This document shows, one piece after another, positions 5,618 to 7,066 of a DNA stretch of 60,140 nucleotides. Source of the stretch: Dehalococcoidia bacterium (GTDB taxonomy: Bacteria; Chloroflexota; Dehalococcoidia; UBA2979); the NCBI GenBank assembly GCA_019694855.1, contig JAIBBD010000001.1, positions 64,415 to 124,554 on the forward strand, in the 5' to 3' direction. Position 1 is the first letter of the stretch. Each line of letters opens with the position of its first letter. A program made the translations under genes and the position numbers. A model generated the notes under the pieces. The model worked only from the letters and a program-made list of their open reading frames with translations, did no database searches and was not told where the DNA came from.

Positions 5618-6205
5618 CTAGCTGAGGGCGTTCTCGAGCAGCGCCCGCATCTCCTTGAGGGTGGCGTGCCGCCAGCCGGGGGCGAAGTCCCATGTCCTCG
5701 CGCGGTAGCGGGCCAGGGCTTCCTGGCGCTCGGGGCCGTCTTCCTTCGGAGCACCGTCCAGGATGGCGCGCAGCGGGACCATCTCCTCGTTCGCGAGTTC
5801 CGGGCGCTCAATCCAGTGGCCGAGGTAGCGGTGACTGCCATCGTAGAAGACGACTGTGGGGATCGACTCAAATTCCCCCTGGTTGAGGAACTCGCTCATG
5901 ATGTCCTTGTTCTCGTCACGCGCGAAGTAGCGGACTTCCATACCTGTCGCCTCGGCGATGCGGGCCATCACCGGTACCCCGCGCCATACGTCCGGACACC
6001 AGTGCTCGCCGAGCACCAGCGCCTTCACGCCATGCTCCGCGACCAGCTTCTTCACGGCCTCGACATCGCCGGGATCCGGCGTGTACTCGTCGTAGTGCCG
6101 CTGGAACTCCTTGTGGCGTTCGGGGATCTTCTCCATCCACTCGGTGAAGGAGCCGAGACCGGTTGCGAACCGTTCCGGCGTTACGACTGAAGTGCCACTG
6201 GTCAT
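5618..6205 (-). CDS. thioredoxin-fold protein with a single active-site cysteine
   Basis: 195-residue soluble protein with a thioredoxin fold. The active-site loop reads HWCPDVWR, so only the first cysteine (Cys70) is present. The second position is Val, and no other Cys occurs in the protein. The cis-proline motif SIPTVVFYDG is intact (Pro116). It resembles Thioredoxin_9-type proteins with WCxDx loops. Without a resolving cysteine it cannot act as a classic disulfide reductase; monothiol transfer or a binding role is more likely. The ATG at 6205 has a GGGGAGG ribosome site 7 bases upstream. A perfect palindrome covers its core promoter (6235-6253), implying regulation by a repressor or sensor. 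Confidence 0.75.
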   Translation of the reverse strand: MTSGTSVVTPERFATGLGSFTEWMEKIPERHKEFQRHYDEYTPDPGDVEAVKKLVAEHGVKALVLGEHWCPDVWRGVPVMARIAEATGMEVRYFARDENKDIMSEFLNQGEFESIPTVVFYDGSHRYLGHWIERPELANEEMVPLRAILDGAPKEDGPERQEALARYRARTWDFAPGWRHATLKEMRALLENALS

Positions 6206-6234: not shown

Positions 6235-6253
6235 TATACTCCCCCGGAGTATA
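6235..6253. promoter_or_regulatory. palindromic operator over the thioredoxin-fold gene promoter
   Basis: TATACTCC-CCC-GGAGTATA is a perfect inverted repeat with 8-base arms and a 3-base spacer. Read on the minus strand, TATACT at 6253-6248 can serve as the -10 box, so a bound protein would block transcription. The form, a G/C tract flanked by ATA and TAT, is like operators of the CsoR/RcnR/FrmR family, which sense copper, nickel, formaldehyde or persulfide. The family match is inference, and no such regulator gene lies in this window. Confidence 0.55.
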
Positions 6254-6313
6254 GCACCCGTTCGTGATGGCTCCCCCGTTCGGAGGATGAGGGCGGGCCG
6301 GCGGACAGGCTCG

Positions 6314-6325
6314 TATAATCTCGCG
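6314..6325 (+). promoter_or_regulatory. consensus -10 box placed for a leaderless transcript
   Basis: A perfect TATAAT (6314-6319) is followed by six bases and then an in-frame GTG at 6326. Transcription would begin at or next to that GTG, giving a leaderless mRNA. This decides the start of the DUF1461 gene against an upstream ATG at 6287, which would lie before the promoter. No ribosome site precedes the GTG. Confidence 0.55.
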
Positions 6326-7066
6326 GTGACCGCCATTCGCTGGATCACTACCGCGCTCTTCATCCTCTCCGTACCGGTGTTCCTGCTGCTCTCCAACGTG
6401 CGGATCGCTGCCATGGAGCAGCGGGTGTACGGCTACTCGTTTTCGCACTATGACGTCGAGGCGATCACCGGAGTTGACCGGGAGCAGCTCGACCGGGCGG
6501 CGGCCGAGATGATCCAGTACTTCAAGGACGACGAGCCTCTGCTCACGACGCGCGTGCGCATCGAGGGGCAGGAGCAGCCACTGTTCTCACCTCGTGAGAC
6601 GCTCCACATGCGCGACGTAAAGAAGCTGTTCCAGCGGGCGTTCTTCTTCCAGGAGGCTTCGTTCGTGTACCTCGTGACCTACGTGGTCACGGTGTTCCTG
6701 TGGGCGCGCGAGCGTTCACTGCGCAAGCTCGCGCGCGAGTGTCTGTACGCCGGGGTGTTCACGGCGGCGCTGCTCGCCGTGGCCGCCGCGGCGATGCTCG
6801 CCGGATTCGACTCGCTGTTCAGGCAGTTCCACCTGGTGTCGTTCTCGAACGACTTCTGGGAGTTGGATCCGGCGGTCGATCACCTCGTGCAGATGTTCCC
6901 GGAGGGATTCTGGTTCCGGGTGTCGCTCCTCGTCGGGTTCGTGACGCTGGTCGAAGGCCTGGCACTCGCGGGCGCCGCGTATGCGACGCTGGGCTGGCTC
7001 AGCCAGCCGGAGCCAGTGAGGCCGCCCGCAAGACGGCCCGCCGAGGGGACCGGGGCCGCTTCCTAG
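6326..7066 (+). CDS. DUF1461/TIGR01906 family integral membrane protein
   Basis: Unknown function. 246 residues with four likely membrane spans: one at the N-terminus (about 6-25), two central, and one near 195-220. A soluble region of roughly 90 residues lies between spans 1 and 2. The segment FRQFHLVSFSNDFWELDP followed by QMFPEGFWF is the signature of the TIGR01906 family as I recall it. The GTG start is set by the TATAAT box 6 bases upstream. The stop codon lies in the same CTAG tetranucleotide as the stop of the convergent fmdB-like gene. Confidence 0.75.
   Translation: MTAIRWITTALFILSVPVFLLLSNVRIAAMEQRVYGYSFSHYDVEAITGVDREQLDRAAAEMIQYFKDDEPLLTTRVRIEGQEQPLFSPRETLHMRDVKKLFQRAFFFQEASFVYLVTYVVTVFLWARERSLRKLARECLYAGVFTAALLAVAAAAMLAGFDSLFRQFHLVSFSNDFWELDPAVDHLVQMFPEGFWFRVSLLVGFVTLVEGLALAGAAYATLGWLSQPEPVRPPARRPAEGTGAAS

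Follow-up and report, generated by a model that had tools for sequence, protein, structure and literature searches.

According to Tan et al. (PMC3902906), CsoR operators commonly contain a TAC-X9-GTA inverted repeat around G/C tracts, and the type 1 operator of RcnR, as cited in the same article, reads TACT-G6-N-AGTA. TTHA1953 of Thermus thermophilus is reported as a CsoR-family repressor of sulfur oxidation (PMC10318464), and InrS (PDB 5fmn) is presented as the nickel sensor of nrsD. Here, we compare with these systems a palindrome in a Dehalococcoidia genome of 2.46 Mb in 130 contigs. The window, that is, the whole stretch of DNA analysed, comprises 60,140 nucleotides (C32:64415-124554). It contains the following features around the palindrome.

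5618 to 6205, minus strand: gene of a Thioredoxin_9 protein (PF14595; family scan, E 4.5e-28) of 195 aa, in which the single Cys of WCPDV replaces CxxC
6235 to 6253, no strand assigned: palindrome TATACTCC-CCC-GGAGTATA, of TAC-X9-GTA form, a candidate CsoR-family operator (read from the sequence and motif scans)
6248 to 6256, minus strand: TGCTATACT, extended -10 of the Thioredoxin_9 gene, which shares bases with one arm of the palindrome (read from the sequence)
6326 to 7066, plus strand: divergent Lit-like gene (PF07314; family scan, scanned from 6329; start codon and promoter inferred)

The palindrome is exactly as the preliminary description gave it, with perfect 8-base arms and a 3-base centre, CCC. 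It falls in the intergenic region that separates the Thioredoxin_9 gene on the minus strand from the divergent Lit-like gene on the plus strand. Six perfect 8+3+8 palindromes occur in the 60-kb window, so symmetry by itself is not rare; of the six, only this palindrome has arms rich in A/T (5 of 8 bases, against 1 to 2 in the other five). At up to 3 mismatches, no other copy was found in the window (mean 0.00 in 100 shuffles) or, with the 3 centre bases left free, in the 2.46-Mb genome. The whole-genome motif search that had been suggested thus yields no second copy, and a regulon built on the exact motif is ruled out.

Read on the minus strand, one arm gives TATACT, which lies within TGCTATACT at -51 to -43 from the Thioredoxin_9 ATG. 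The earlier assignment of this arm to the -10 box of the gene at 5618-6205 agrees with the orthologues, since 18 of 37 distinct Thioredoxin_9 promoters, the window's own counted, have a similar extended -10 (loose pattern TGNTANANT or TGNTAYRCT); counterparts include TGGTACACT and TGCTACACT. WCPDV is present in 48 of the 49 Thioredoxin_9 proteins read, named duplicates counted. Among 13 titled loci carrying relatives of the protein, 11 belong to Chloroflexi/Dehalococcoidia and the others to Thermoflexus and Terriglobia, all of them metagenome-assembled. The Lit-like gene starts about 70 bp from the palindrome. A TATAAT at 6314-6319 ends 6 bases ahead of its in-frame GTG, and the gene is perhaps leaderless, transcribed from this element.

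The palindrome can be written TAC-TCCCCCGGA-GTA, a TAC/GTA inverted repeat with about 9 bp between the arms, which flank a G/C tract. By this geometry and tract it fits the CsoR-type operator class (PMC3902906), as had been proposed. The genome also encodes members of the regulator family, whose presence the proposal presupposed: two PF02583 genes, L001 and L002, score over the cut-off. Both proteins score below the NCBIfam cut-offs for RcnR and FrmR.

L002 is divergent from the thioredoxin gene trxA and the thioredoxin reductase gene trxB, whose products each score above the NCBIfam equivalog cut-off, and ATACCCCTTGGGGGTAT lies directly ahead of the L002 gene. The family was searched in 44 genomes, in which L002-type genes (at least 55% identity) occupy 28 loci, the own locus counted. 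TACC-N7-GGTA, which has the X9 spacing, occurs in the own promoter of 26 of these 28, and trxA lies divergent beside the gene in 27; in the last one, the contig extends only 52 bp on that side. Cys-His-Cys is the Cu(I) ligand set of CsoR. L002 has this set as C34, H59, and C63, of which the first Cys is kept in 27/28, the His in 27/28, and the last Cys in 28/28; linkage to copper efflux genes is absent, the neighbours being trxA-trxB. The RLXR stretch (RLSR) and the Gln (VTQL) are also retained.

L001 is followed directly by the gene of a heavy-metal P-type ATPase with E1-E2_ATPase and HMA domains. The best NCBIfam models for this ATPase are copper ATPases, with scores below the cut-off, and its frame is cut by the locus end. 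The L001 gene might itself supply the regulator of the window palindrome, which would place the thioredoxin-fold gene in the copper response; its linkage to the ATPase gene and G/C-rich repeats such as CCTCCCCGCGGGAGG in the L001 region speak for this. The spacing of the copper-type operators speaks against it. TAC-X13-GTA palindromes were found in 7 of 20 copper-type loci (L049, L051, L064, L065, L066, L067, and L070; e.g., ATACCCCCCCGGTGGGGGTAT). A filtered scan of the same 20 loci gave 8 with a site (4 X13, 4 X7), none with X9, and the remainder without a recognisable site. We therefore consider binding by L001 quite unlikely and, on the shared X9 spacing, group the window palindrome with the L002-type operators. 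By eye, CACCCCCTCCCGGTGGGTA adjoins CCTCCCCGCGGGAGG upstream of the L001 frame 889-1476; it may be the likely operator of L001, with the X13 spacing kept in degenerate form.

To score the palindrome independently, a matrix was built from 26 csoR-promoter sites with the window palindrome excluded, because the degenerate pattern described below derives partly from the window site. Of the 28 csoR loci, L091 has no site in the stretch covered and L092 lies at a contig end; neither contributed to the matrix. The window palindrome scores 13.7 bits, compared with 20.5-30.5 bits for the 26 training sites. It is the top site across the 60 kb, the runner-up scoring 7.8, and its score was reached in 0 of 100 dinucleotide shuffles of the Thioredoxin_9 promoter. 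By chance, 13.7 bits are reached at a rate per position of 1.2e-6 (66% GC) to 1.9e-6 (50% GC), which corresponds to about 0.07 expected scores per window and about 3 per genome. Much of the weight thus rests on the position of the palindrome in a promoter. It has T/A at the fourth position of the TAC arm in both arms, where the 26 sites of the regulator have C/G.

Thioredoxin_9 protein matches, a few of them weak, were found in 39 of the 44 family genomes, and 35 orthologue promoters could be scored. Two carry strong sites (L042, 10.6 bits; L036, 9.7) and three carry weaker ones (L022; L025, 2.9; L029, 2.0). The sites of L022, L025, L029, and L036 overlap the -10. At 9.6 bits, 2/35 Thioredoxin_9 promoters compare with 0/681 background windows (Fisher p 0.002), and at 1.9 bits, 5/35 compare with 2/681 (Fisher p 4e-6). 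The five site-bearing relatives come from three other genera, so that independent events are fewer than rows, whereas the Fisher test treats rows as independent. L046 (57 bp upstream) and L162-L173 (12 duplicates of promoters under G handles) were set aside in this test. The nearest orthologues, L020 and L021 (74 and 73% identical), have no site, though their genomes hold an L002-type regulator, and no site was found in six added promoters from distant genomes, in five of which no CsoR was found. The motif is thus mostly not kept upstream of orthologues, contrary to what the preliminary description would lead one to expect. Given this sparse and patchy presence, the site appears to have been gained and lost across relatives; the genome analysed is the sole representative of its genus (g1) in the family searches.

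A second inverted repeat, GGCRCRGTARAA-N4-CWGYGCC, was observed in 16 of 36 orthologue promoters at up to 4 mismatches (L027-L032, L034, L035, L037, L038, and L040-L045; L029 only at 4). It replaces the CsoR-type site in these promoters and stands alongside it in L029 and L042. A perfect palindrome, GGCGCAGTAACTTCTACTGCGCC, is present in L041 and L045. The second repeat is absent from the window's own Thioredoxin_9 promoter (best match, 7 mismatches). It is possibly the operator of another regulator, and the Thioredoxin_9 gene may accordingly answer to more than one regulator within the family.

Palindromes over a -10 are bound by many regulator families. The window palindrome could thus be the site of a TetR, MerR, ArsR, or other non-CsoR repressor and resemble a CsoR operator by accident, a reading to which the different repeat in the 16 promoters of other genera lends some weight. 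The match to the csoR matrix, the spacing, and the G/C tract oppose it, and the frames nearby, four of which were family-scanned, showed no other recognisable regulator; we regard it as improbable. Much the same holds for the view that the palindrome arose by chance over an ordinary, unregulated promoter. Such a palindrome would be in keeping with the six 8+3+8 palindromes in 60 kb, the nearest relatives without a site, and the roughly three equal scores per genome. It accords poorly with the fact that this is the sole AT-rich TAC-X9-GTA palindrome of the six, with the 0.07 such scores expected per window, and with the enrichment at the same promoter in relatives, and we give it a small chance.

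If the palindrome is a CsoR-type operator, further genes may share its regulator. A degenerate pattern, ATACYCCNNNGGRGTAT, was modelled on two sites, that of the window and that of L002, and matches both without mismatch by construction. At up to 1 mismatch, it gave 89 forward matches in the 44 genomes, compared with 9 for the reversed control. Among the matches listed (75 of the 89), 24 lie at csoR promoters, one of these at a csoR fragment. The other 51 comprise 47 that were analysed as 45 loci, 2 from the own genome (C32, C11), and 2 that were left out (G025, one of G027). The matches listed lack those of G041-G043 and one from G040. Gene calls near the sites came from simple ORF heuristics, and the assignments used here rest on tblastn and family scans.

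Among the matches listed, the site precedes a relative of the own genome's NifS-like cysteine desulfurase by 30-65 bp in 12 of the 45 non-csoR loci (tblastn); L119, L124, and L128 are only 46-47% identical, and the match in L109 is short and close to the end of a contig. For the desulfurase of the own genome, the best NCBIfam models are desulfurases (NifS, E 1.2e-136), with scores below each cut-off. In a further 11 of the 45 listed loci, the site lies upstream of a 72-aa zinc-ribbon protein (tblastn), which matches DUF7351 below the cut-off and has no NCBIfam match. By tblastn, the 45 listed loci also include one trxA, one aldo/keto reductase, and 20 with no assigned gene. Five sites, L133 and L137-L140, belong to genomes that yielded no CsoR gene, and they match none of these genes.

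Two CsoR-type sites about 26-28 bp apart precede the zinc-ribbon gene in L108, L151, and L153 (C38:21318 and 21345 in the own genome), and tandem sites were also seen by eye in L113, L114, and L131. In four genomes of genus g9 (L133, L134, L135, and L136), the site lies near a common long frame, QWGSLLRGTIAPP..., or close variants of it; in one of them (G019, L133), a CsoR gene was not found.

At up to 2 mismatches, the scan of the own genome returned 7 sites, at the promoters of Thioredoxin_9, csoR-trxA, the desulfurase, the aldo/keto reductase, the zinc-ribbon gene, and nadA (C59), and on C28. Membership in a regulon is not claimed for nadA, relatives of which occur in 0 of the 45 loci among the matches listed, or for the C28 site, which has no clear gene or tRNA closely after it.

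The earlier idea of a stress regulon with an unseen regulator can be kept in modified form: genes of thiol and sulfur metabolism share the operator type and L002 is a candidate regulator, whereas the exact motif is single-copy. Taken as a whole, the preliminary interpretation is partly supported.

In our assessment, the palindrome is probably the operator of a CsoR/RcnR-family repressor, most likely L002, acting by the mechanism set out here (probability roughly 0.6). L002 was chosen on account of the X9 sites in 26 of 28 own promoters, the trxA linkage, the matrix ranking, the recurrence of the site, and the enrichment at Thioredoxin_9. In this mechanism, the apo or reduced L002 repressor would bind the TAC/GTA arms across the G/C tract and, by covering both the transcription start and the extended -10, block RNA polymerase. 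The repressor would be released when Cu(I), persulfide, or some other electrophile, acting as the thiol-reactive signal, binds or modifies the Cys-His-Cys set. The one-cysteine thioredoxin-fold protein would then be made together with TrxA/TrxB, the cysteine desulfurase, and the zinc-ribbon protein. That L002 binds the window site and represses the promoter, which signal it senses, and what the Thioredoxin_9 protein does are predictions from sequence.

More broadly, an undescribed Dehalococcoidia clade of CsoR proteins might act as general regulators of thiol and sulfur trafficking, with thioredoxin, thioredoxin reductase, the desulfurase, the tandem-operator zinc-ribbon protein, the aldo/keto reductase, and, for the lineage at hand, the thioredoxin-fold protein with one cysteine as targets, while the second paralogue would keep copper through X13 rather than X9 spacing. 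We propose this tentatively, at somewhat less than even odds. Literature surveyed at the level of titles and abstract openings, with few subscription papers covered, yielded no description of a trxA-linked CsoR regulon. If the proposal is true, what a CsoR-family repressor governs in this lineage, for which every named relative included here is metagenome-assembled, is thiol redox and sulfur delivery and not metal efflux. Operator spacing would then separate the regulons of the two paralogues within a cell, and the single-cysteine Thioredoxin_9 protein would gain a candidate place in a persulfide or thiol stress response.

The best solved sequence relatives of the L002 protein include InrS (5fmn) and the entries 7mq1-7mq3, deposited as csoR. 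We take 7mq1-7mq3 to be CstR persulfide sensors. In the alignment, InrS has Cys-His-Cys like L002, and 7mq1 has Asn at the position of His59. Visual inspection of the 3.2-kb L002 locus revealed no gene for nickel export. The minus-strand sequence of the window site, TACT-CCGGGGG-AGTA, has ends identical to those of the RcnR type 1 operator around a 7-base tract, but the tract is C2G5, compared with G6N in the RcnR operator as cited in PMC3902906. The TAC-X9-GTA repeat around a G/C tract, together with the RLXR stretch and the Gln of L002, resembles the CsoR type 2 operators and the Streptomyces lividans CsoR as described in PMC3902906. The targets given for S. lividans CsoR in that article are copper-related, whereas the genes associated with the operator type here encode thioredoxin, thioredoxin reductase, a desulfurase-like protein, and a zinc-ribbon protein. 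The TTHA1953 motif given in PMC10318464, TACNNTACNNNNGTANNGTA, differs from the window site in having no continuous G/C tract, and the targets reported there are sox genes. L002 nevertheless resembles TTHA1953 (PMC10318464) in that a CsoR-family protein would serve a sulfur-related regulon and that two paralogues in one genome would have separate operators.
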